Below, piece by piece: positions 2,936 to 55,248 of a DNA stretch of 64,000 nucleotides (the first letter of the stretch is position 1; every line of letters begins with the position of its first letter). The stretch lies in NCBI RefSeq assembly GCF_040362765.1, contig NZ_BAABWK010000002.1:558001-622000 (forward strand), given 5' to 3'. The position numbers and the translations under genes were made by a program. Origin of the DNA: Pyruvatibacter sp. HU-CL02332. Its GTDB lineage: Bacteria; Pseudomonadota; Alphaproteobacteria; CGMCC-115125. The notes beneath the pieces are model-generated. The model saw only the letters and a program-made list of their open reading frames with translations, was not told the origin of the DNA and did no database searches.

Positions 2936-4399
2936 CTACTTTTTGATCATCGACAGAACGCGTTTACGCTTCTTGTCGTCGTATGGCGGACGGAACATTT
3001 CCGCGACCATTTTTGCCTTGGACTGGTGATAGACAGCCTTGGCGTGGCTGAAGGTGCGGAAGCCATCGACGCCGTGATAGGAGCCCATGCCTGAGGGGCC
3101 GACGCCGCCGAAGGGCAGGTCTTCCATGGACACATGCATAATCACGTCATTAACAGTCACGCCACCCGAAGTGGTGTTGTCCAGAACCCGGCGCTCTTCT
3201 TCGGAATCCTGACCGAAGTAGTAAAGACCAAGAGGCCGATCCTTGGAGTTCACGTATTCCAGAGTTTCCGATACGTCCTTGTAGGTCTTCATCGGCAGAA
3301 CCGGGCCGAAGATCTCATCCTGAAGAACCTTCATGTCCTCTGTCGGGTTCTTGATGATGGTCGGCGGAATCTTGTTGTATGGCTGCTGAGAGAAATCCTC
3401 ATTCGCAGGGTTGATCTCAATGACTTCCCCACCCTTGGCCTTTGCATCTTCGATATAGCCCGTGATGCGATCATAGTGGCGATCATTGATGATCGATGTG
3501 TAGTCAGGATTGTCCTTCATGGTTGGGAACATCTTTGTCACAACCTTCTGGGCGCCCGCCACAAACTCGTCCGCCTTCTCTTCAGGTACCATGACATAGT
3601 CAGGAGCCAGGCAGATCTGACCAGCGTTGAGGGTCTTGCCAGTCATCACACGTGCAGCCACGTCTTCCATGTCGCTGTCACGGGAAACAATGACGGGAGA
3701 CTTGCCGCCCAGTTCCAAGGTTACCGGAACCAGGTTTTCCGACGCAGCACGCATCACGTGCTTGGCAATCGAGCCCGCACCTGTGAACAGCAGATGATCA
3801 AAGGGCTGTTTGGAGAATGCTTCGCCCACAGCAGGGCCACCGGTAATAACGGCGACTTCGGTCTCGTCATAGGCTTCGCGGAACATCTTTGCCATCAGTT
3901 CAGAACACGCAGGCGTGAACTCTGACGGCTTGATCATTGCCCGATTGCCCGCCGCAAACACACCAGCAAGCGGTGCAAACGTCAGATTAAACGGGAAGTT
4001 CCAGGGGCTGATGATGCCGATGGTGCCCAGCGCCTGATATTCCACATGCGCTTTTGCGCCGAGTAGGCCGAGCGGAAACTGCAGCTTACGCTTTTCAGGG
4101 CGCATCCACTTTTCCATGTGCTTCTTGGCATGGTCCAACGGCCCAACGGAGCCCATGACGTCAGTCATCAATGAAGCAACCGGTGCGCGGTTGCCAAAAT
4201 CTGACGTCAGCGCATCTACGATTTCGTCCTTGTTATCCACCAAAAGCGCGATGGAACGATCGATCCAGTCCTTTCGGCGCTTTACGCTTGCGGGGCCCTC
4301 TTCGATATGGGCCTTTTTCTGGCGATCCAGAATGGCGCGAATGCCGTCTGAAATAGCGTCCGCGCTTGATGTATCGGGCGTCGATTCCATAACGCTCAT
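2936..4399 (-). CDS. Coniferyl-aldehyde-type NAD(P)+ aldehyde dehydrogenase
   Basis: The 487-aa protein is a complete aldehyde dehydrogenase, oxidising an aldehyde to the acid with NAD(P)+. Visible signatures are PWNFP (132-136), the general base Glu229 in LELGG and the nucleophile Cys263 in GQICLAPDY. The C-terminus PFGGVGPSGMGSYHG with HAKAVYHQS matches the coniferyl aldehyde dehydrogenase subfamily (ALDH3-like, about 470-490 aa) rather than betaine or succinate-semialdehyde enzymes. The ATG at 4399 follows GAGG and opens MSVMESTP; an in-frame ATG at 4441 is less likely. A native substrate could be a fatty or aromatic aldehyde, so the subfamily name should not be read as proof of lignin use. 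Confidence 0.88.
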   Translation of the reverse strand: MSVMESTPDTSSADAISDGIRAILDRQKKAHIEEGPASVKRRKDWIDRSIALLVDNKDEIVDALTSDFGNRAPVASLMTDVMGSVGPLDHAKKHMEKWMRPEKRKLQFPLGLLGAKAHVEYQALGTIGIISPWNFPFNLTFAPLAGVFAAGNRAMIKPSEFTPACSELMAKMFREAYDETEVAVITGGPAVGEAFSKQPFDHLLFTGAGSIAKHVMRAASENLVPVTLELGGKSPVIVSRDSDMEDVAARVMTGKTLNAGQICLAPDYVMVPEEKADEFVAGAQKVVTKMFPTMKDNPDYTSIINDRHYDRITGYIEDAKAKGGEVIEINPANEDFSQQPYNKIPPTIIKNPTEDMKVLQDEIFGPVLPMKTYKDVSETLEYVNSKDRPLGLYYFGQDSEEERRVLDNTTSGGVTVNDVIMHVSMEDLPFGGVGPSGMGSYHGVDGFRTFSHAKAVYHQSKAKMVAEMFRPPYDDKKRKRVLSMIKK

Positions 4400-43146: not shown

Positions 43147-44487
43147 ATGTTTAAGAAAGTTCTGATTGCCAATCGCGGTGAGATTGCCCTGCGCATTCAA
43201 CGCGCGTGCACCGAGTTGGGCATTGCAACAGTTGCGGTACATTCCACCGCTGACGCTGATGCCATGCATGTGCGCCTGGCAGACGAGAGTGTGTGCATTG
43301 GCCCAGCGCCCGCGTCGGAAAGCTATTTGAACATTCCAGCGATCATCTCAGCCGCTGAGATTACCGGCGCTGATGCAATCCATCCCGGCTATGGCTTTTT
43401 GTCTGAGAACGCCAACTTCGTATCGATCGTCGAAGAGCATGGCATCACCTTCATTGGACCGACGGCGGAGCACATCCGAGTGATGGGCGACAAGATTGCC
43501 GCCAAACAGACAGTGAAGAAGCTCGGCATTCCCGTTGTGCCTGGATCAGACGGTGCCCTTACAGATGCTGCGGCGGCAGCAAAAGTTGCTGAGGACATCG
43601 GCTACCCCGTCCTCATCAAGGCGGCAGCGGGTGGTGGCGGGCGCGGCATGAAGGTCGCCCTCAATCGCGGCGAGCTTGATAACGCTGTTTCCACAGCCAG
43701 AGCGGAATCCAAAGCAGCCTTTGGTGATGATGCGCTCTACATGGAGCGTTATCTGGGCAAACCGCGCCACATCGAAATTCAGGTCTTTGGCGACAAGCAC
43801 GGAAATGCGGTTCACCTAGGTGAGCGCGACTGCTCATTGCAGCGCCGTCACCAAAAAGTACTTGAGGAGTCTCCTTCTCCAGCCATCACGCAGGAAGAGC
43901 GAGACAAGATCGGCAAAGTCGTTGCCGATGCAGTTCGCGGATTGGGATATATCGGTGCGGGAACTATTGAGTTCCTCTACGAGAATGGCGAGTTCTTTTT
44001 CATCGAAATGAACACGCGTCTTCAGGTCGAACATCCGGTTACTGAAATGGTCACAGGCTTTGACCTGCTGCGTGAACAAATTCGTGTTGCTGCCGGCATG
44101 CCGCTCAGCTTTACGCAGGAAGACGTGGTCATGAAAGGCCACGCCATAGAATGCCGTATCAATGCGGAGCATCCTGAAACCTTCACGCCATCGCCAGGCA
44201 CCATTACGGATTTTCATCCGCCTGGAGGGCTCGGGGTACGCATCGATTCTGCGGTTTACTCTGGCTACAAAATTCCGCCGTACTACGACAGCATGATTGG
44301 TAAGCTGATTGTGTATGGATCTGATCGCGAGGAATGTCTGGCGCGCTTGCGGCGCTCCCTGCGTGAATTCGTGGTCGGTGGAGTCAACACCACCATTCCG
44401 CTTTTCGGTCGTCTTCTCGAAGAAGAAGACATCCAGACCGGCAATTATGACATCCATTGGCTGGAACGGTTCCTGGGCCTGAAATAG
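43147..44487 (+). CDS. accC: Biotin carboxylase subunit of acetyl-CoA carboxylase
   Basis: The 446-aa ATP-grasp enzyme carboxylates biotin on AccB. Present are [30 protein letters not shown] (ATP loop, about 158-170), [19 protein letters not shown] and the active [12 protein letters not shown] with conserved Arg and Glu. The C-terminal [12 protein letters not shown] region is standard. The length matches other AccC proteins. It forms an operon with accB and then aat. Confidence 0.97.
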
Positions 44488-44501
44488 CGCTCTGAACACT
44501 T

Positions 44502-45176
44502 ATGATCGACGACGATACGGATACTGACGGCGAGATAACCGCAGACATATTGCTGCGCGCCTACGCCTATGGGGTGTTTCCCATGGGTGAATCCCGCGAT
44601 GACCCGTCGCTCTATTGGGTTGATCCGCAGGAGCGTGGGATCATTCCACTCGACGATTTCAAGCTGCCTCGCAAGCTGCGATCTACTGTTCGCAAATGCC
44701 CATTCAAAGTCACCATCGACACTGAATTCAGGGCAGTGATGGAGGCATGCGCGTTGCCGGCACCAGGCCGCTCCGGCACCTGGATAAATGACCGCATTGT
44801 CGATTTGTACTGTGAGCTACATGAACGCGGCTATGCCCATTCCGTGGAGTGCTGGAAGGACCAGCAACTCGTCGGCGGCCTCTACGGCGTATCACTCGGC
44901 GCGGCATACTTTGGTGAGAGCATGTTTTCGCGCGAAACCGATGCCAGCAAGATTGCACTCACCTACCTCGTCGCACGTCTGAGGCGAGGTGGTTTCAAGT
45001 TGCTGGATACTCAGTTTGTAACCGACCACCTGGCTCAGTTTGGTGCGGTGGAGATTCCCCGCGACGAATATCGCCGACGACTAGCGGAAGCGATTACTCT
45101 GCCGTCAGATTTCTATTCGCTTGATGCAGGTGCTGCCGCGGAAGAAATCGTGCAGTCCGTCAACCAAACATCATAA
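44502..45176 (+). CDS. aat: Leucyl/phenylalanyl-tRNA-protein transferase
   Basis: The 224-aa enzyme adds Leu or Phe to proteins with N-terminal Lys or Arg, marking them for ClpS/ClpAP. Hallmarks are [62 protein letters not shown] and [17 protein letters not shown]. It is 14 bp after accC. Its last 64 bases overlap the oppositely oriented DUF2155 gene, a tail-to-tail overlap larger than usual. Confidence 0.95.
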
Positions 45177-45607
45177 ACAGGGTGCTCAAGGGCATTCAGT
45201 CCGGGAGATGATGCCAGCATCCAGCCACTAAAAATGGGCTCTGGCTCGGTCGTGATCTCTTCGTTGACCGGGTACTCACGCACTTCCAGAAAAGCGATCG
45301 TTTTAGGTGGGTCTTCTGGACGGGCCTTCTCGCATGCACGCACCACGATGCCCAATGTCCCAAACCGGAGTGGCGTATCCAGCTTCACACGCATTGGATG
45401 GGTGCGAGCTGTGATCTTGTTGAGACCCATCAAGTTCGCTGTGTCAGGTGCAAGTTCGACTTCAACCACAGCTTCTTCAGTGACAATCTCGCCTTCAGCC
45501 TCCTGAGCAACAGCGTGGGCCGCAAATCCGGCAATGAGTAGAGCAATACTCATGACACGAAAAACAGTCTTCATGCCCATATGCCCAACGCTTCCAAACA
45601 AACTCAC
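45113..45607 (-). CDS. DUF2155 domain exported protein
   Basis: The 164-aa protein starts with a hydrophobic signal region ([24 protein letters not shown]) and contains the DUF2155 domain ([33 protein letters not shown] and [26 protein letters not shown]). The pair of conserved cysteines ([13 protein letters not shown]) may form a disulfide. Function is unknown; the family is alphaproteobacterial and linked with NDUFA12-like and aat genes. The GTG at 45607 overlaps the MlaD stop (GTGA); ATGs at 45580 or 45574 may be the true start of the signal peptide. Confidence 0.88.
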
Positions 45608-46059
45608 TCGCTGTCGCCCCCACCAGCACTGAAGACCGCCTGGCTTACGAGACCAATCAGATCAACCGAGCCTTGGGCAAATTGGATTTCGTCACCAGCC
45701 TCGAGCATGTCCTCGCTGCCTCCCGGTGTAAGGGAAATGTAAGAGCCACCCAGCAAACCTTCTGACGTGATCTTTGCGCTTGTGTCTTCTGGAAGCGCCA
45801 CTTTGGGATCAACTGTGATCGTCACCCTTGCCACATAGGTAGAGACATCCAACTCCTGTTCCGTCACGGACCCGACCTTGATGCCAGACAGACGAACATC
45901 AGCACCTCGCGCCAAGCCGTCCACCCGATCAAAATCTATGGTTAGGTCGTATCCGGACGTCGCGCCGGCATCTGTGGAGCTGTAGGCAAAAAACAGAAAA
46001 ACTGCCGCTATGGCGATGACAGCAGCTCCGGTCAGGGTCTCAATAATTGAAGACTGCAT
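45604..46059 (-). CDS. MlaD-like MCE-domain lipid-transport protein
   Basis: The 151-aa protein has an N-terminal transmembrane helix (VIAIAAVFLFFAYSS, about 14-30) and one MCE domain (about 38-115): FDRVDGLARGADVRLSGIKVGSV, then ITVDPKVALPEDTSAKITSEGLLGGSYISL. This is MlaD, the hexameric ring that takes phospholipids between membranes. The permease and ATPase genes (mlaE, mlaF) are not nearby, which is usual for this orphan locus. It overlaps DUF2155 by four bases, and lies 80 bp after the NDUFA12-like gene. Confidence 0.9.
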   Translation of the reverse strand: MQSSIIETLTGAAVIAIAAVFLFFAYSSTDAGATSGYDLTIDFDRVDGLARGADVRLSGIKVGSVTEQELDVSTYVARVTITVDPKVALPEDTSAKITSEGLLGGSYISLTPGGSEDMLEAGDEIQFAQGSVDLIGLVSQAVFSAGGGDSE

Positions 46060-46139
46060 CGTGGGATCCTTCGTTGCCTCTTTAAATCAGCCCTCTACCC
46101 GCTGGTGACGGCTGAACGCACGGAATGTCGGGTTACGCT

Positions 46140-46523
46140 TTATTCGGGTTTCCAGGCCTCATAGTCACCAGCTGTTTTTGCTCTTGGAGCGCCGGTAATG
46201 AGTGAACCTGCAGGGCGGTACGCCTGTTGGGAGCCCGTGAGATTGGGCTGGTGTGGTTTTTCCCATTCCCGCGGCGTGTAACCGGTATCAGCAGGCGCGA
46301 CATCAACTGTTTGATGAAGCCATCCATGCCACTCCGGCGGCACCCGGGATGCCTCAGCAAGACCGTTGTAAATCACCCAGCGGCGCTTGGAGTTCTTACG
46401 ATCGGAATAGTATTTATTGCCCTGGCTGTCTTCTCCGACCAACTGGCCACGCTTGAACGTCCAAAACCGGGTGCCGATCGTCTGACCGTTCCACCAGCTG
46501 AAAATTTGTCTGAACCACATCAT
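46140..46523 (-). CDS. NDUFA12 family accessory subunit of complex I
   Basis: The roughly 127-aa protein matches the alphaproteobacterial homologue of mitochondrial NDUFA12: FSWWNGQTIGTRFWTFKRGQLVGEDSQGN, YYSDRKNSKRRWVIYNG, EASRVPPEWHGWLHQTVD. It is an accessory subunit of NADH:ubiquinone oxidoreductase. I chose ATG 46523 (or 46520, next codon), since the frame above has no family sequence. The C-terminal 40 residues are Pro/Gly-rich and variable. Confidence 0.9.
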   Translation of the reverse strand: MMWFRQIFSWWNGQTIGTRFWTFKRGQLVGEDSQGNKYYSDRKNSKRRWVIYNGLAEASRVPPEWHGWLHQTVDVAPADTGYTPREWEKPHQPNLTGSQQAYRPAGSLITGAPRAKTAGDYEAWKPE

Positions 46524-46681
46524 GAATTTGCTGCTCGCACCAAGCCTAGGGATGTCTATTTCGACCCGCCAAGATTGCCCGCGAGTCCCAAAGGATTTTG
46601 CGCAATATGCCACTCTGGCCGGTATAGCGTCCACCCTTTGGAAAGGTGCTGTTTCGCCACACAGATAGATCCTGGTTTGGT

Positions 46682-47284
46682 CTAGATTTCCCAGACTTCC
46701 TCTGCATCTACATCTTCAACGACAGCTGCCGCGACTGGCGCAGGAGCAGGCCTTTTAGGTGCGGGTGTTGAGGGTATCTTGGCCGGGCGCCCCGTCGCGC
46801 CGCCGCTGGGCGTTATGTCGCCAGGGTCACGCAATACATAGTGATCACCATCGAGCAGGAAAATCCGCTTGTCGGCCCTCACCCACTGGATACGTTTGAG
46901 GAGATTTGCCGGCACAATCGGTTTTGCAACAAAGTGATTGGCGCCTGCATCCATTGACGCTTTCACAACTTCTGGCTTGGTGTGAGCTGTGAGCATGATC
47001 GCGGGCGTGCGAGCCGCAGCACCACTGTCTTTGTGGCGCAGGTGACGCAGGAAGGCGATCCCGTCCATGGGCTCCATATGCCAGTCGCACAGGATCAGGT
47101 CCGGCGTTTTGGCATTGATCATCTCCAATGCAGTCGCGCCGTCGCCGGCAAACCGCAGGTCACGCGTTCCAAAAGCAAGAAGCAGTTCCTTCAGCAGCCG
47201 TCGGGTGTTTGCATTGTCGTCAACCGCAACAATCCCCACGCCTGCCAGAACCCCAAGCCCTGGTTTTTGGTCTTTCCCCGGCAT
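46682..47284 (-). CDS. Stand-alone response regulator (CheY-like)
   Basis: The 200-aa protein has a receiver domain (about 15-140) starting GIVAVDDNANTRRLLKELL with the acidic pair, the phosphoacceptor Asp in LILCDWHMEPMDG, the Thr in MLTAHT and the Lys in HFVAKPI. After it comes a short helical segment (ANLLKRIQWVRADKRIFLLDGDHYVL) and a Pro/Ala-rich tail. There is no output domain, so it may work by protein contact. No partner histidine kinase is adjacent. I chose ATG 47284, with GAGG upstream. TTAA-N6-TTAA lies 127 bp before it. Confidence 0.88.
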   Translation of the reverse strand: MPGKDQKPGLGVLAGVGIVAVDDNANTRRLLKELLLAFGTRDLRFAGDGATALEMINAKTPDLILCDWHMEPMDGIAFLRHLRHKDSGAAARTPAIMLTAHTKPEVVKASMDAGANHFVAKPIVPANLLKRIQWVRADKRIFLLDGDHYVLRDPGDITPSGGATGRPAKIPSTPAPKRPAPAPVAAAVVEDVDAEEVWEI

Positions 47285-47594
47285 TCTTGCCTGCCTCGCC
47301 CCAACGATGTCTTGGACTGCTATGGCGAAAAACCGCCTACGCTCCAAAACAGACTTCACTCCACCCGGCCATTTCTTTCCGGGATGCTGTGCAGTGTGAC
47401 CCGAATCGCCTTAAGACTGCTTAACGCCTCGGATTTTTCTCATCCTTTTGCGAATGGCTGAAATTCTTGTGTCGACATAGATGTCTTGACCCAGAGGCCA
47501 GATATGCACCATATTTTGTTAACCATGTATGCGTAACCACAAAATATTGTGGCTACATGGGATTTGAGATCACCTTGGTCGTTGGGGGCGAACC
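47285..47594. other. Divergent region before the ribonucleotide-reductase-like gene
   Basis: No gene is present in these 310 bases. The right half holds a promoter-like TTGACC (47486-47491) and CATATT (47510-47515) with 18-bp spacing, two NrdR-box-like 16-mers (47506-47521 and 47537-47552) and a TTAACCAT CtrA-type half-site at 47519-47526. The left half serves the response regulator and contains TTAA-N6-TTAA at 47411-47424. Confidence 0.6.
47506..47552. promoter_or_regulatory. Tandem NrdR-box-like sites
   Basis: CCACAAAATATTGTGG (47537-47552) matches the NrdR consensus ACACWATATATWGTGT at 13 of 16 positions and has perfect 6-bp inverted arms. GCACCATATTTTGTTA (47506-47521) matches at about 11. 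The start-to-start distance is 31 bp, three helical turns, the spacing known for paired NrdR boxes. Box one covers the -10 element, and box two ends 42 bp before the ATG of the NrdJ-like gene. Confidence 0.7.
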
Positions 47595-50438
47595 ATGCAG
47601 ATCGGACGCCACTACACCGATAAAGTAACTGGTCCCTATGCGGGTCAAAGCTTCAGGCGGGTTCGTGTCGAGGACGCGGATGGCAATATGACCTGGGTCT
47701 TTGCACCTACTACGTGGCCGGTCAGTGTAGCCACCGCGTTCAGCGGGCATGCCCTGTTGGCTGAAGCGGTGCCTAGCGCCCGCCGCCAGCTCCACGAGCC
47801 CAAAGTCCCGTCTGCCTTACGCCGGTATGTCGCGCTGGAAAGTGACAGCCAATCAGCCAATCCTGCTTTTGCATATGAAGTAGATGTCCGAAGTGCGCTT
47901 GATCGCGTAGCAGGAGCTCTGGCACGACAAGGTCTGATCGCCGGGTACTTTGATGGCGCAGTAGATGCCCTTGCCTTCCATGATGAGCTTCGTGCTGCGC
48001 TCGTTTCGCGAAAGATCACCCTGGCCTCTGAAACCTGGCAGCGGGTTGGTCGAGATTGGGCTTATGGATATGGTCAACGCACAACGACAAATCCGGACAA
48101 CAAACCTTCGCCCGTTTCATTTGCCCTGAGCGAGAGCATCAGCAGCGACGGGTTCTTGACGCGCATTGCGTCAGATGCCCGGCGTGAGCAAGACGCTGCG
48201 GCGCTGGCTCTTGGTCGCAACTCTCTTTCAGACCTCACACAATTGATTAAGCGCGCATTGGCAGATGGCGGCCCAAATGTGGGAAAGAACCCGGCCCTGG
48301 AAACTGCACTAGCGGATGCCAGGAAACGAGGCTTGCCTGCCGCTGTTGCCCGCCGTTTGCTTGATGAATGGATTGTCGGCAACGACAGTTGGCCTGACGC
48401 TGACACACATCTGGATGACGACTCTGACATCTGGGACCTTCTTGGCACCCAGACGCCATATGCTGTCCGCAAATCGAACACCTGTGATGAAACATGGACC
48501 GAACCCCTGGCCCTCTCAGCGTTACGAGGTGGTGCTCCAGGTGTGTGCTTTGAAAAGTCATTGCAAGACAGCTGCCTTACTCCAGTTGAACAGCTTGTCC
48601 TGACACCCAGCGGCGTGGCCGCCCCAGCAGGATTTACGCCGTCAGGCGCTGTGGATTTGCTGGCTTTCACGATGCCAGACCTTGAAACAAATGGGGCTTC
48701 CGGACGCATAGACATCGACGGATTGGTGCATTCCGTCCGGCTGCTGACTATTGCACTGGACATTGCGCATGATGATGCTGGCGTGCCGTCTGAGCTGCGG
48801 CCGATTGCAGTTGCGCCCATGAATGTTGCAGCAATGCTCATGAGCCAAGGCGCGGCCTACGGTTCTGACGAGGGGCGGGCCCTTGCAGCATCAGTTTGCG
48901 GTCTGGTCACAGCAACTGCAGCGGCAACAAGCGCTGGGTTGGCAGCAGCACTCGAGCCAGCCTCAATAAAGAACTCGGGGAAAGACTCCGCCGCGCGTCT
49001 TCGCAAGATGCAAAACACTCTGCTTGGCAATGCAGGCGCATTCAGCGCACATCCATCGCCACCACTCTATCCGCACACCCCCCAGCAAGCTGGCATACTG
49101 CAGGCGGCACGCGATATTTTGGACCGTGCCATTGATAAAGCGGAAGAAACGGGGCTTCGCAATACCGCTCTAACGACTGTGTCGGATGACACTGTTTTAA
49201 TGGATCTATTGGGCGCCGAGTCGGCAGCCCTTTCACCTGTCCGAACACTTGTTAAGTACCGACGGCTGACACCAGAGCTGGATGCTGAAGCGATTTACAA
49301 GGTCGTGTCGCCAGCAGTTCCCTCAGGTTTACGCGCGCTTCGTCATGACGACGCTTCGATCGATTCCATTCTGGGTCATTTGGTCGGGCGCGGTTCTCTG
49401 CATGGCGCACCGGGCGTCAATTATGACATTCTGCGCTCAAGGGGCTTCACTGACGAAGATATCGAAGTCACAGAAAGTGCCTTAGCGACCGCGAGTAACA
49501 TTCGGGCGGTGTTTACGCCGTATGTGCTGGGCTGGGATGGAGATTTTTACGCACAGAATGATGAAGACATTTTGGCGGGACTGGGTTTCTCGACCTGGGA
49601 TATCGAACACGCCAACTTCCATTGCTGCGGTGCCCTGACCCTTGAAGGATCAAGAGACTTACCAATCGAGCATCTGCCTGTGTTTGACTGTGATGAGCCG
49701 CTCGGCGAAATCGGAACACGCCACGTCGGCACGTCAGATCGTCTCTTGATGGCGCAGGCTGTTCAGCCGTTTGTGACGGATGGTTTGGCCCTTGACCTGC
49801 AGCTGCCCCGCGAGACAACTGTTGACGGTATCCGCGCGCTCTATCAACAAGCAGAAGACATGGGTCTAGCGTCGATCCGCCTCAACCGGAGGGGTGCGGC
49901 CCTCAGTGACGCTCTGGACTATGATGATCTGTTAGACGACTTTCCTCGCGACGAGCTGGATGAGGTACGTACGGATGTTACCGACAACATCTATGTACGC
50001 TCAGTTGAATCAGATGATCTACCGCAGCCCGCTCCACTGCCTGCTGACAACGCGGCGCTCAATGCCGCCATTTCTTTAGGCTTGAAGCATGGCGTGCCAG
50101 TAGAAGCATTTCTGGAGGCGTTTTCAGCTCTGCCGACATCTGATGGAAAAGACGTGCTGAGTGGCACCCTTTCAGCACTGGCCACATCATATTTGGACCA
50201 ACCGGTCCTGCAAGACGCGGACTCAGATTGTTCGGATTTCTACGGAGATGAAGCGGATCTTGCGGCGACAGATCTTCGCGATCCATTCGTGCGCAGCACC
50301 CGCGCACGATCAGGCCAAGTTCAAAATTCAGAAGAAATTGGGACCAGCACCGACACATCGGTGCCGGACCCCTCACGAGCTTTCGGTGATCCGGCCCTTT
50401 CGCCCCCCAGCGTTTCAGGCCGCCCCCGAGAGGAATAG
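47595..50438 (+). CDS. NrdJ-like protein, degenerate class II ribonucleotide reductase (probable pseudoenzyme)
   Basis: The intact 947-aa frame aligns by eye end to end with the long B12-dependent reductase NrdJ (about 1200 aa): RHYTDKVTGPYAGQSFR at the start, GYFDGAVDALAFHDELR and RDWAYGYG (116-160), SDEGRAL (424-430), EHLPVFDCDEPLGEIGTR (692-709), DGLALDLQLPRETTVD and AAISLGLKHGVPVEAFLEAF (824-843). Key catalytic parts are missing. The thiyl-radical NPCSE motif is TPSGV (337-341), PTGT is gone from 527-534, DCDTTG is DLLGAE, and the redox Cys of QPHACF is Ser175. About 150 barrel residues and the C-terminal cysteine cluster are absent, and the last 70 residues are disordered. It is unlikely to reduce nucleotides. 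NrdR-like boxes precede it. Confidence 0.75.
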   Translation: MQIGRHYTDKVTGPYAGQSFRRVRVEDADGNMTWVFAPTTWPVSVATAFSGHALLAEAVPSARRQLHEPKVPSALRRYVALESDSQSANPAFAYEVDVRSALDRVAGALARQGLIAGYFDGAVDALAFHDELRAALVSRKITLASETWQRVGRDWAYGYGQRTTTNPDNKPSPVSFALSESISSDGFLTRIASDARREQDAAALALGRNSLSDLTQLIKRALADGGPNVGKNPALETALADARKRGLPAAVARRLLDEWIVGNDSWPDADTHLDDDSDIWDLLGTQTPYAVRKSNTCDETWTEPLALSALRGGAPGVCFEKSLQDSCLTPVEQLVLTPSGVAAPAGFTPSGAVDLLAFTMPDLETNGASGRIDIDGLVHSVRLLTIALDIAHDDAGVPSELRPIAVAPMNVAAMLMSQGAAYGSDEGRALAASVCGLVTATAAATSAGLAAALEPASIKNSGKDSAARLRKMQNTLLGNAGAFSAHPSPPLYPHTPQQAGILQAARDILDRAIDKAEETGLRNTALTTVSDDTVLMDLLGAESAALSPVRTLVKYRRLTPELDAEAIYKVVSPAVPSGLRALRHDDASIDSILGHLVGRGSLHGAPGVNYDILRSRGFTDEDIEVTESALATASNIRAVFTPYVLGWDGDFYAQNDEDILAGLGFSTWDIEHANFHCCGALTLEGSRDLPIEHLPVFDCDEPLGEIGTRHVGTSDRLLMAQAVQPFVTDGLALDLQLPRETTVDGIRALYQQAEDMGLASIRLNRRGAALSDALDYDDLLDDFPRDELDEVRTDVTDNIYVRSVESDDLPQPAPLPADNAALNAAISLGLKHGVPVEAFLEAFSALPTSDGKDVLSGTLSALATSYLDQPVLQDADSDCSDFYGDEADLAATDLRDPFVRSTRARSGQVQNSEEIGTSTDTSVPDPSRAFGDPALSPPSVSGRPREE

Positions 50439-50515
50439 CCCACCTTAAGAAGGCGCGAGCAACCAAGCCCCCCAAGCGCGGTTTTTCGCATAAACAAAGA
50501 TACCCCAAGACGACT

Positions 50516-50546
50516 AAAGGGCTCCTCGTTGCGAGGAGCCCTTTTC
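50516..50546. terminator. Bidirectional terminator between the NrdJ-like gene and aspS
   Basis: AAAGGGCTCCTCG (50516-50528) pairs with CGAGGAGCCCTTTT (50532-50545) around TTG. It can stop both convergent transcripts; the minus-strand side reads TTT after the stem. Confidence 0.85.
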
Positions 50547-50576
50547 TCTGCCTGCCAATCATTATAGTGCAGGCGT

Positions 50577-52361
50577 TTATTCTTTAGGTGCCGTGGAACG
50601 AATGCTCAGCTCGCGCATCTGATGCGCGCTGGCTTCAGCTGGTGCTCCCATCATCAGGTCCTGGGCCTGCTGGTTCATGGGGAACATTGTCACTTCACGC
50701 AGATTTTCTTCACCTGCCAGCAACATGACGATGCGGTCGATCCCTGGTGCGATGCCACCATGCGGCGGCGCGCCATAGCGGAACGCATTCAGCATGCCGC
50801 CGAACTTTTCCTCCACAACTTCGGGACCGTATCCGGCGATCTCAAAGGCCTTCATCATGATTTCTGGCCGATGGTTACGAATGGCACCTGACGACAACTC
50901 AATGCCGTTGCACACGATGTCGTACTGGTAGCCGTTGATCTCCAAGGGGTCTTTCGTCTCAAGAGCTTCAAGGCCGCCCTGGGGCATGGAGAACGGGTTG
51001 TGAGAGAAATCGATCTTCTGTTCGGTTTCATCAAACTCGTACATCGGGAAATCGACGATCCAGCAGAACTCAAACTTGTTCTCGTCGATGAGCTCGAGTT
51101 CACGGCCAAGCTGCTGGCGCGCCTGCCCGGCGAAATCCACAAACTTGCCTGGAATACCACAGGTAAAGAACACCGCATCGCCCGCGTTGAGGCCAAGTTC
51201 TGTACGCAGAGCTTCTGTCCGCTCAGGCCCGATGTTCTTGGCAAGCGGACCGGCACCAACGACGCTGCCCTCTTCTTCGCGGAAGAAGATGTAGCCTAGA
51301 CCCGGCTGACCTTCCTTCTGCGCCCAGGAATTCATCCGGTCACAGAATGCACGACTTCCGCCGCCCGGTGCGGGGATTGCCCAGACACGCACCTTGTCAT
51401 CTGCAGCAATCTGTCCGGCAAACACCTTGAAGCCAGAATCGCGGAACGTTTCCGTTGCATCAGACATTTCAATCGGGTTGCGGAGGTCTGGTTTGTCAGA
51501 CCCGTATTTACGCATTGATTCTGCGTATGGGATGCGCGCGAATTTTTCTGACACCGACTTGCCGTTGCCGAACTCGATGAACACGTCGCGCAGGATGGGT
51601 TCAACTTCCTGGAAGATGTCTTCCTGCTCTACGAAACTCATTTCGATGTCGAGCTGATAGAATTCACCCGGCGACCGGTCTGCTCGCGCATCCTCATCAC
51701 GGAAGCACGGTGCGATCTGGAAATACTTGTCAAAGCCCGCAACCATGATGAGCTGTTTGAACTGCTGGGGTGCCTGGGGAAGTGCATAGAACTGGCCAGG
51801 GTGCATCCGGCTTGGCACCAGAAAGTCACGTGCGCCTTCCGGCGAAGATGCCGTGAGGATTGGCGTTTGGTATTCGCCAAATCCAGCCTCAGTCATACGG
51901 CGGCGCAAATCCGCAATGATGCGTGACCGCAGAACAATGTTCTGATGGATGCGTTCGCGGCGCAGATCAAGGAACCGATAGCGAAGACGGGTGTCTTCTG
52001 GATAGTCCGTGTCCCCGAATACGGGCAGCGGCAGCTCCTGCGCTTCCGACTGGACTTCCACCGACGTGATGCGGATTTCCACAGCACCGGTTGGCAGCTT
52101 GTCATTTACGGTCTCATCCGAACGGGCGACGACTTCACCCTCAATGGTTACAACCCATTCCGACCGCATTTCCTCAACGCTTGGAAAAGCCGGGCTATCT
52201 GGATCTGCCACGCACTGCGTCAGACCATAGTGGTCGCGCAGATCAACGAACAGCAGGCCTCCATGGTCGCGCACACGATTGACCCAGCCAGACAGTTTTA
52301 CAGTCTTGCCAACGTCTTCGGCACGCAGCTGGCCGCAGGTATGAGAGCGGTAACGGGTCAT
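50577..52361 (-). CDS. aspS: Aspartyl-tRNA synthetase
   Basis: The 594-aa class IIb synthetase has an OB-fold anticodon domain ([21 protein letters not shown]), motif 2 [10 protein letters not shown] with the [11 protein letters not shown] strand, the bacterial GAD insertion (about 300-420) and motif 3 [22 protein letters not shown]. Many alphaproteobacterial AspRS also charge tRNA-Asn, a question the sequence does not answer. I chose ATG 52361 ([10 protein letters not shown]) because relatives start there; ATG 52385 adds eight residues. It diverges from rnd. Confidence 0.96.
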
Positions 52362-52543
52362 GGCGGTAAAAGCCTTGTCAGTCATGGGTTCCGGAGGGCT
52401 CGCCAGCCTGAGCAAATCAGGTTTGAGCGGTTGCGGCGGAGAAGCGCATAGGGGCGCGGGTCTTGTCAAGATTCCAGCCGCCAATCAGCCTTATCAACAG
52501 GGACTAGCGACAATTTGCGCGGGTTCAGTTATAGCATTGAGAT

Positions 52544-53713
52544 ATGGACATTATTTCTACCACAGAGGCCCTCAACGCGGCCTGCGCCACCCTTTCAAGC
52601 GAAACCTATGTGACTGTCGATACGGAGTTCCTGCGGGATTCCACCTATTGGCCGGTCCTCTGCCTTATTCAGGTTGCCGCTCCAAAAGGTGAGGCATTGA
52701 TCATTGATCCGCTGGCGGATGGCCTGGATATGGCCGCGTTTTACGCCCTTATGGCTAATAAATCGGTCATCAAGGTGTTTCATGCCGCCCGTCAGGACAT
52801 CGAAATCTTCTGGCACGAAGCCAAAACACTGCCCGATCCGCTGTTTGATACGCAGGTTGCAGCCATGGTCTGTGGATTTGGCGACTCTGTCGGCTACGAG
52901 AACATCGTAAAGCGGGTTACCGGCGAGCAAGTGGACAAGTCTTCCCGGTTCACGGATTGGAGCAGACGTCCGCTGACCGACAAGCAATTGCGGTATGCAG
53001 CTGCCGACGTGACCCATCTACGCCAGGTGTATGAGCATCTTGGGCGGCGGATTACGAAATCGGGCCGCGCTGAGTGGGTCGCTGAAGAGATGGCAATTCT
53101 TCAGGATCCGGACACTTATGAAGTGAAACCCGAGAATGCCTGGAAGCGTCTCAAACTGCGCAATCGGAGCCGCAAGGCTGTGGCAGTGCTGATGGAAACT
53201 GCAGCATGGCGTGAACGGGAAGCCCAGGGGCGCAACGTTCCACGTGGCCGTATTCTCAAGGACGATGCGATTCAGGAGCTGGCAACACAGGCGCCGACCT
53301 CCACGGAGGCCTTGGCCAATCTACGGGCCGTGCCTCGTGGTTTTTCCCAGAGCCGCCACGCCAAAAGTCTATTGGATGCAGTTCAAGTTGGCCTCAACAA
53401 ACCCTCGGGTGACGTTCTGATGCCAGAGGCGCCTGAACAACTTCCGCAGGGGTTGGGACCGACAGTCGAACTTCTGAAGGTATTGCTCAAATACAAATGC
53501 GAAGCGCATGACGTCGCACAAAAGCTCATCTGCAACGTTGCTGACCTCGAACGGATTGCAGCAGATGACAATGCCAATGTGTCCGCGTTACGGGGATGGC
53601 GGCGCGAAATATTCGGCAATGACGCTCTGGATCTGAAGCATGGGCGCCTGTGTCTGGCGATCGAAGATCAAGTAATCAAGCCGGTCCGCCTTGAGCAGAA
53701 GGCCGCAGAGTAG
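52544..53713 (+). CDS. rnd: Ribonuclease D
   Basis: The 389-aa DEDDy exonuclease trims the 3' ends of tRNA and other stable RNA. The exonuclease motifs are VDTEFLR (Exo I), [13 protein letters not shown] (Exo II) and the Tyr/Asp pair in [11 protein letters not shown] (Exo III). HRDC-type domains follow (about 210-290 and 300-370). It diverges from aspS by 182 bp and converges with ppx across 11 bp. The pairing aspS-rnd is common in alphaproteobacteria. Confidence 0.94.
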
Positions 53714-53724
53714 CTTTTGGATCG

Positions 53725-55248
53725 CTAAACGTCAGACACCTGTATGTCAGCTTCAACGCCCATTGCGCGTGCCAGTGCGGAGAGGCGTTTGGCCACCACC
53801 TCGCCTAACAGATCCCGCTTGGCGGATGGTACCAGCAGCGTGAGCATGCCCGGCTCCGGCTTGAGCCTGAAACCCGTTACAAGTTTTGGCGCCCCAGCTG
53901 AAATTGTATGCCCAAGCCTCAAGGCAAGCCCGACAGCAGAGGCACGACGCGTCCGGTCCTCGTTCAGTAACGCCAACACATGGTCATGATCGCCAGTGCC
54001 AAGACCGCTGCGGTATCGATTGGCGACCGCAAGGCTGAGGTAAACGCGACCCGGATGATCAATACCAGACATCGGTGCGCGCAAGATTTCTGTGAGAACG
54101 TGCTGAGAGCGATAGTCCGGGTGAATCCGCCAGGCCATGTCGCTCAGGTGGCAGGCGGCCTGATGGAGCCGTCGCTCATCCTTGTCAGCTGTCATCAAAG
54201 GCCCCGCCTTGAAGAGCGGCGCGGTAAAGCGCTCAAGCTCCTCCCCATGTTCCGGGAAGCGTCCAAGTCGGCGCCCGACGCCTCGCGACCAACTCAAAAG
54301 TGGATCGACCTTGCGTTCGTCTGCAGTAAGGCGGGCATAGAGCAAGCCTTCACGGACACCATAGGCCGAGATGACCATCTTGGAGGCGCCTATGGTCTCG
54401 AGCGTTTTTTCAAGCACCAGCGCCGCATAAGGAAGCGTCTCCAGACGTTTGCGAGAAATATCGGGCACACGCTCCAATGATTTGGCGCTCTGACCGGAAA
54501 CAACTCGTGCGATCTCTATGGCTTCACTCTTGCGAACTGAATAGGCCTGCAGAATACGCAGCGGGTAGTCTTCGCCATGCATGTGCATCCGCGCCAAATT
54601 CCGCCAGTTGCCGCCCACTGCATAGAAGTTTTTGACTGATTTCTGGGGCTTCCAGTCCATTTTGCTGAAGGCTTCGGTCACCAGTTTGCGGGCCTTGCTG
54701 ATGTCGTTGCCCGACAGGTCCATCAATCGCAGAGGCCCCACCGGCAGAGTTACACCTTCGCCATATCGGCCATTGGCAATATCCACCAGTTCGAGACTGC
54801 CACCACCCAGATCACCGACAATGCCATCTGCTTCGGGGAAGCCGGCCAGTACGCCTTCTGCTGCATATCGTGCTTCATCCTGACCGGAGAGGATGGAAAT
54901 TCTCGCACCACATAAATGTTCGGCGCGTTCGATGAAGTAGTCCCCATTGGAGGCTTCACGCACCGCAGCGGTTGCTACCGCATCGACATTGGCAATACCC
55001 AGTGCGCGCGTCAGCCCGCGAAAACGCGCAAGAGCTGCCAGCGCACGGTCAATTCCCGCAGGGTCCAACTGGCCGGTCGTGCCGACTGTACGGCCAAGCC
55101 CGCACAATACTTTTTCGTTGAAGATGGGAATAGGTGTACGGCGATGGTCCGCATACACCACAAGGCGCACCGAATTTGACCCGATGTCGATGATGCCTAC
55201 CCCTTCACTCAGGTCAGGCACCTCGCGCAATCTCAGCGCGGTTGGCAT
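53725..55248 (-). CDS. ppx: Ppx/GppA-family exopolyphosphatase
   Basis: The 507-aa ASKHA-fold phosphatase removes terminal phosphate from polyphosphate or pppGpp. The phosphate-1 loop is GIIDIGSNSVRLVVY (about 17-31) and phosphate-2 is GDLGGGSLELVDI (about 146-158). The conserved Glu is in SGQDEARYAAEG. The C-terminal half is helical with a metal-dependent HD-like region (HQAACHLSDMAWRIHPDYR). The gene sits 76 bp after ppk1 on the same strand, so polyphosphate synthesis and breakdown are controlled together. Confidence 0.9.
   Translation of the reverse strand: MPTALRLREVPDLSEGVGIIDIGSNSVRLVVYADHRRTPIPIFNEKVLCGLGRTVGTTGQLDPAGIDRALAALARFRGLTRALGIANVDAVATAAVREASNGDYFIERAEHLCGARISILSGQDEARYAAEGVLAGFPEADGIVGDLGGGSLELVDIANGRYGEGVTLPVGPLRLMDLSGNDISKARKLVTEAFSKMDWKPQKSVKNFYAVGGNWRNLARMHMHGEDYPLRILQAYSVRKSEAIEIARVVSGQSAKSLERVPDISRKRLETLPYAALVLEKTLETIGASKMVISAYGVREGLLYARLTADERKVDPLLSWSRGVGRRLGRFPEHGEELERFTAPLFKAGPLMTADKDERRLHQAACHLSDMAWRIHPDYRSQHVLTEILRAPMSGIDHPGRVYLSLAVANRYRSGLGTGDHDHVLALLNEDRTRRASAVGLALRLGHTISAGAPKLVTGFRLKPEPGMLTLLVPSAKRDLLGEVVAKRLSALARAMGVEADIQVSDV

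Follow-up and report, generated by a model that had tools for sequence, protein, structure and literature searches.

Why would a bacterium keep an intact gene for a ribonucleotide reductase whose catalytic residues are gone? This question arises from the 64,000-nucleotide stretch analysed here (the window), positions 558,001 to 622,000 of contig NZ_BAABWK010000002.1 from Pyruvatibacter sp. HU-CL02332. Positions 47595 to 50438 of the window encode a 947-amino-acid relative of NrdJ, the class II (B12-dependent) reductase, and a first-pass annotation had proposed that this protein cannot reduce nucleotides and that its frame is kept by selection. Class II matches, open frames in all four genomes of the genus and a ratio of nonsynonymous to synonymous substitution rates (dN/dS) of 0.156 bear out this core proposal. 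Non-catalytic descendants of enzymes are known as a kind of protein, and we consider it very probable that the gene encodes a further non-catalytic enzyme relative under selection. Going beyond the annotation, we found the gene in the ancestral place of nrdJ, and losses of this kind in other lineages. The dead NrdJ probably has another job, perhaps the regulation of DNA-precursor supply.

A class II reductase frame without its catalytic parts

47595 to 50438, + strand: open reading frame of the dead NrdJ, 947 amino acids, unbroken from the ATG at 47595, which aligns with the NrdJ start, to the stop at 50438
47805 to 48008, + strand: class II N-terminal domain PF08471, residues 71-138 (Pfam)
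48600 to 48668, + strand: remnant of the finger loop, residues 336-358, from which the second redox cysteine and the radical cysteine together with its N and E have been lost (alignment)
48699 to 49421, + strand: remaining part of the barrel, PF02867, residues 369-609 (Pfam)
49182 to 49229, + strand: site of PTGT...DCDTTG in live NrdJ, residues 530-545, replaced here (alignment)
49245 to 49928, + strand: residues 551-778, the most constrained part together with the helical insert; models onto residues 695-916 of 7b9p (dN/dS, model)

The predicted protein matched the class II families PF02867 (1.3e-11, residues 369-609) and PF08471 (3.6e-06, residues 71-138), both above the Pfam cut-off, as well as NrdJ of Rhodobacter sphaeroides (PDB 7b9q/7b9p) at 2e-64. 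The NCBIfam model of NrdJ, NF005736, matched at 2.6e-86, yet with 290 bits the cut-off of 1737 was not reached. As the first-pass annotation had it, the frame is intact and aligns with NrdJ at both ends, from the first residues to a C-terminal block (KHGVPVEAF), and the significant PF02867 match leaves the class II homology unrefuted. Because this homology is joined by a conserved locus (see below), descent of the frame from NrdJ can be regarded as demonstrated. PRK06948 (NF005401) carries the similar name 'ribonucleotide reductase-like', but the genus protein scored 27.5 bits against it, with a cut-off of 906.

We aligned 17 live NrdJs with the four genus copies, 11 of the 31 copies from family f64 and one copy each from families f146 and f151 (see below). 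The first redox cysteine, present in 17/17 live NrdJs, falls inside an absent stretch in 4/4 genus copies. The radical cysteine of the finger loop (NxCxE), again found in all live rows, is replaced by L or V in the four genus copies, where the N beside it is missing and the E is replaced by P or D. The second redox cysteine (kept in 17/17 live rows) has become T or V, and PTGT (17/17 live rows) is replaced, each in 4/4 genus copies. Of the six C-terminal cysteines (zinc ribbon with redox pair), which the 17 live rows have, none is retained in any of the four. The alignment agrees with the annotated loss of the catalytic and redox cysteines, of PTGT and DCDTTG, and of the C-terminal cysteine cluster. 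Among the NrdJ-like open reading frames of our first locus set, both NPC[SGR]E and PTG[TS] were absent only in the genus, G279 and G356.

The annotation had also noted some 150 missing barrel residues. In the alignment, reference columns 188-290, about 100 barrel residues, were only 2% occupied in the genus copies. From the place of this stretch in the fold, we infer that it would carry helix A, loop 1 and helix B, the dimer interface and specificity site according to PMC9669993. Canonical dimerisation and effector binding are therefore unlikely, and binding of deoxynucleoside triphosphates (dNTPs) at the specificity site, one of the roles suggested earlier, is disfavoured by the loss of the segment in which these three elements should lie. 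Descent from a B12 enzyme might also suggest that the protein still binds adenosylcobalamin and serves as a B12 sensor or store; with part of the barrel deleted, we hold this to be highly improbable.

A search for the TSCPD domain (PF12637), proposed earlier as a check, gave no match in the whole own genome, and the same search matched a control genome, Caulobacter vibrioides. In the alignment with live NrdJs, the TSCPD region of the genus showed 31% identity over 62% of the columns. Compared with the long NrdJ (NF005736/PRK07562; 7b9p/7b9q), its ancestor by sequence and locus, the genus protein can still be recognised by its N-terminal domain, its helical insert and the helices at its C-terminus, but is without the radical cysteine, the redox cysteines, PTGT, the first part of the barrel, the TSCPD domain and the zinc ribbon. 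Judged by its residues, it has lost class II reductase chemistry.

Selection on the gene within the genus

Four genomes of the genus were examined (G000, G001, G002 and G003), of which G002 is 81% complete. The gene is open in all of them and no frameshifted copy was found among the four; in G002 the contig ends within the gene, so that the 5' part of the copy is missing. The other three copies are 82, 56 and 47% identical to the window protein. A search of 385 genomes of the class with a profile of the genus protein gave 254 matches, with 1519-1764 bits for the four genus members and 305 bits for the best other genome. For the closest pair, G000-G003, dN/dS was 0.156 over the gene, far from 1; in wider genus pairs dS is close to saturation. 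When the pair was analysed in windows of 75 codons, dN/dS dropped to 0.015 at residues 601-675, with 0.082 and 0.068 in the flanking windows, and codon-level constraint was concentrated in residues 526-750. The gene is intact and under purifying selection: with 4/4 copies open and this dN/dS, neither the broken relatives nor the values near 1 that mark a pseudogene were seen.

The gene could instead be a relic on its way out, redundant after the advent of the class I reductase NrdAB and with a frame that is merely unbroken so far. Its dN/dS is the highest of nine neighbourhood genes compared, the remnants in other lineages shrink from about 800-970 to about 275 amino acids, and two f64 copies look broken (G393 by one in-frame stop, G394 by two frames). 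Against a relic stand the value of 0.156 with a core of 0.015, the four open copies with identities down to 47%, and the TSCPD part of f64, where dN/dS was 0.005-0.035 in 7/7 pairs, three of which share one member, G385 (0.058-0.385 before TSCPD). We therefore judge this explanation improbable.

Some results nevertheless weigh against a selected protein with a role in dNTP supply. In G000-G003, dN/dS rose to 0.32-0.33 at residues 751-900 and to 0.52 over the final 47 codons, a stretch with a dS of just 0.12. Since eight neighbouring genes had values of 0.008-0.115, all below that of the dead nrdJ, constraint is only moderate. In addition, 131 of the 385 class genomes gave no match to the genus profile (at least seven of these keep a TSCPD remnant); many lineages can thus do without the protein. 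A full-length AlphaFold model built with distant NrdJ pieces was too poor to be used (predicted local distance difference test, pLDDT, 43.6).

Modelled as a fragment, residues 551-778 reached a mean pLDDT of 71.8, with 78-92 over fragment residues 21-90, which lie in the helical insert. The predicted fold matched residues 695-916 of 7b9p (Foldseek 2.3e-10; VIA-align Z 13.9, root-mean-square deviation 6.0 over 204), and both the model and this match lean on an input alignment built from NrdJs. That alignment consisted of pieces of the shared core only; whole NrdJs apparently shifted the deletion, and N- and C-terminal pieces were misplaced. As modelled, the core fragment is consistent with the NrdJ-like structure implied by the annotation.

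The nrdJ locus and the reductases of the genus

46140 to 46634, - strand: NDUFA12 homologue (PF05071), conserved beside nrdJ whether live or dead
46682 to 47359, - strand: response regulator (PF00072; Pfam)
50577 to 52484, - strand: aspS (named by its sequence), the conserved neighbour on the other side of nrdJ

One flank of the gene holds accC, aat, DUF2155, mlaD, ndufa12 and the response regulator, the other aspS, rnd and ppx; the names aspS, rnd, ppx, accC and aat are presumptive. Live nrdJ adjoins ndufa12 in 9 of 11 regions (exceptions G031 and G018). For dead copies the same neighbour was found in 3/3 regions of the genus, 7/7 of f64, 1/1 of f146, 1/1 of f9, 2/2 of f99 and 0/1 of f151. 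In G012, which has a live NrdJ, a response-regulator-like frame occupies the corresponding place, as judged by eye. Because the locus is shared with live nrdJ, the dead gene is most simply nrdJ itself and no stray copy; synteny establishes it as the nrdJ orthologue in its ancestral place.

The earlier proposal to look for a reductase elsewhere in the genome led to class I NrdA and NrdB and to no other NrdJ. Both NrdA and NrdB matched in three of the four genus genomes (G000, G001 and G003), with a fragment of NrdA in the incomplete G002, and a live NrdJ was found in none of the four, one of which is incomplete.

Predicted control elements upstream of the gene

We searched the upstream region with CACWAWATWTWGTG, taken here as the NrdR-box consensus.

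47486 to 47515, + strand: promoter-like site TTGACC-18-CATATT; its -10 overlaps box 1
47507 to 47520, + strand: NrdR-like box 1, CACCATATTTTGTT, two mismatches to CACWAWATWTWGTG
47538 to 47551, + strand: NrdR-like box 2, CACAAAATATTGTG, no mismatch to CACWAWATWTWGTG, 31 bp from box 1

Single NrdR-like sites mean little, since 7 of 100 shuffles reached the three matches found in the window (0.91 expected). The promoter-like site is likewise weak alone, because one was found and shuffles led us to expect 1.9. For pairs, we scanned 577,494 bases, that is, the window and 26 regions, with an overlap between the window and L093. Six distinct places held two sites 30-33 bp apart with at most five mismatches in all, and every one lies upstream of a live or dead nrdJ: the dead genes of G000, G003, G402 and G388 and the live genes of G006 and G018. 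Looser pairs precede the live nrdJ of G044 and G032. In the window, the 31-bp spacing of the boxes corresponds to whole helical turns, the upstream arrangement of the NrdR regulon, if the assumed consensus is right. These predictions strongly suggest that the dead gene retains tandem NrdR boxes, so that dNTP level would still switch it together with the reductase genes. Such NrdR-like boxes agree with a role near a real reductase. An overlap of NrdR box and promoter is also reported for ribonucleotide reductase promoters of Pseudomonas aeruginosa (PMC4409342).

To the results already set against a dNTP-linked role, the following must be added. The rule for pairs was set after the pair had been seen, the regions that make up the 577 kb were selected because they surround nrdJ, and the box consensus is presumptive. 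For seven of the 11 live nrdJ genes a scan of 350 nt gave no pair, the pair of G001 is weak (seven mismatches in all), and the region before nrdA in the own genome showed no pair at 30-33 bp but only sites with a spacing of 21 bp (718 and 739).

Among the other dead genes, the pair of G279 is weak (eight mismatches), that of G209 (six mismatches) lies far upstream, and none was found before the dead nrdJ of G356, G404, G185, G220, G242 and G101. The scan of G394 started at the second of two frames and so provides no test, and G399, whose copy escaped the search motif, was outside the scan; shuffles for the upstream scans preserved base composition only. Between nrdA and nrdB of the own genome there is an NrdR-like pair (L001 3226-3270), with sites at 3226 and 3257, 31 bp apart, and three and one mismatches.

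Inactive NrdJs in other lineages

Weak hits of the genus profile led to family f64, in which 53 of 60 genomes matched the dead copy of G279. The 30 best of these 53 matches were all without both NPC[SGR]E and PTG[TS] (two of them have a frame without a 5' limit), and so was G356. G185 (f146) and G220 (f151) also have dead NrdJs, with both motifs absent over the whole frames. In the small-genome families f9 and f99 we found proteins of about 275 amino acids that comprise little but the TSCPD domain. A match of NrdA length was present in 18/18 tested genomes with dead copies outside the genus, five of which have a further barrel protein. A plasmid copy in Tistrella is, by its motifs, a live NrdJ.

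The dead NrdJs of f64, together with those of G185 and G220, show the same residue losses as the genus protein and have lost a similar stretch of the barrel; those of f64 and f146 share its locus. In the copies of f64, G185 and G220, unlike in the genus protein, the TSCPD domain and four zinc cysteines are still present. The cysteines equivalent to the four proposed zinc ligands of S. nassauensis were kept in 13/13 rows of f64, f146 and f151, and the equivalents of the redox pair were lost in 13/13. The S. nassauensis numbering is that of PMC5704485, which reports that one of the four predicted zinc cysteines, when changed, left the zinc content unlowered. Two CxxC pairs were kept in 28 of the 30 best f64 copies (exceptions L133 and L140); in the tail, four cysteines were present in both f9 copies read to the end and none in the f99 copies. 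The helical insert is 47% identical to the live consensus in the genus versus 37% and 35% in f64-type dead copies, and most of it is gone in G220.

Did these genes lose catalysis independently? A tree for 21 taxa was built from six neighbour genes, which occur in 20, 19, 16, 21, 7 and 10 of them. It placed the genus next to G012, whose NrdJ is live, with a support of 68, and grouped f64 and f146 with a support of 96. The tree of the retained NrdJ columns, which was calculated without f151, f146 and two f64 rows, joined the genus and f64 (support 100) and rejected the genus with G012 (approximately unbiased test, p 0.003); attraction is possible in this tree because both branches are long. The two trees disagree, and the genus and f64 may share one loss. 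Since a TSCPD tree set f64 with f146, f9 and f151 apart, at least three independent losses of NrdJ catalysis are likely; many supports in that tree are weak, and f99 forms a long branch within f64.

From its position, we equate TSCPD with the IscU-like domain at the C-terminus of class II reductases. PMC9669993, where TSCPD does not occur as a name, states in section 8 that a role of the IscU-like domain has not been reported. The dead NrdJ might be selected for a job unrelated to dNTPs, such as iron-sulfur or respiratory-complex assembly, with the NrdR boxes left over. Identity of the TSCPD part to the live consensus is 84-88% in f64, f146 and f151, and ndufa12 adjoins the gene in most regions examined. 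However, the gene points away from ndufa12, the adjacency is inherited because live nrdJ has the same neighbour, and the genus has lost the TSCPD domain. We consider such a job unlikely.

Some positions may be recorded here. The dead NrdJ of G220 (L198 8513-11251, 912 amino acids) lies off the usual locus, and a near-identical second copy on C13 is cut by the contig end. TSCPD remnants of f9 and f99 occur in L172, L173, L176, L178, L179 and L180, at the nrdJ locus in the three regions examined. The broken-looking f64 copies are G393:C15:186662-187942, with an in-frame TAA, and that in G394/L195, with two frames.

A possible role in DNA-precursor supply

We lean slightly towards a selected non-catalytic partner protein linked to dNTPs. 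Class I NrdAB would have taken over reduction from nrdJ, which has lost its chemistry and stayed at its locus. When dNTPs run low, the dead NrdJ would be made via the tandem boxes under NrdR control. Its retained helical insert and the helical half of the old barrel could act as an interaction surface for a partner, most likely NrdAB or else a protein that once bound NrdJ, and the dead NrdJ would tune or scaffold the replacement reductase. Taken by itself, the proposal that NrdAB is this partner remains doubtful.

More broadly, and as a tentative suggestion that we would put at somewhat less than an even chance, long NrdJ may have a second, non-catalytic function that is selected apart from reduction. 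After takeover by NrdAB, nrdJ would stay in the locus, in some lineages apparently under NrdR, as a regulator or scaffold of DNA-precursor supply, and lineages would keep different parts of it, the helical insert here and the TSCPD (IscU-like) domain elsewhere. A bacterial reductase that is dead in place, still selected and seemingly controlled by NrdR suggests that NrdJ does more than chemistry. If TSCPD is the IscU-like domain, lineages that retain little beyond it would make the function of this domain testable without a catalytic background.

Among the literature matches listed, none described a bacterial NrdJ pseudoenzyme, and the reductase pseudoenzymes there were only viral R1 homologues. 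Like the herpesvirus homologues UL45 of human cytomegalovirus and M45 of murine cytomegalovirus, the dead NrdJ is an inactive homologue of a reductase large subunit, whereas those proteins are viral and act on host signalling. Both are of class I ancestry. UL45 is described as an inactive reductase homologue in PMC5469499.

A conserved element at the 3' end of the gene

50395 to 50550, + strand: 3' element conserved at the DNA level, which takes in the final codons of the gene and forms two hairpins, each with a CCCCCC loop (at 50403 and 50468), followed by a terminator

Between G000 and G003, 156/156 bases of this element are identical across the stop codon, compared with a proportion of synonymous differences (pS) of 0.44 for the gene, and the + strand fold has a z of -3.9, terminator included. 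It might follow that the transcript rather than the protein is kept, as a 3' regulatory RNA that has C-rich loops and depends on the promoter of nrdJ. Two findings speak against this, and we regard it as very improbable: codon-level constraint lies mainly in residues 526-750, distant from the element, and beyond the genus, in 55 genomes, the only match was in G031, where 21/22 bases agree, lack a C run and fall within a long open frame. Neither Rfam, at its gathering threshold, nor ARAGORN gave a hit in 44000-54000. The layout resembles that of 6C RNA, but there is no Rfam match. Within the four genus genomes, the element occurs in full solely at the 3' end of nrdJ. The C-terminal peptide GDPAxSPPSVSGRxRE, which we had considered as a protein feature, was dropped and is attributed to the overlapping DNA or RNA element.

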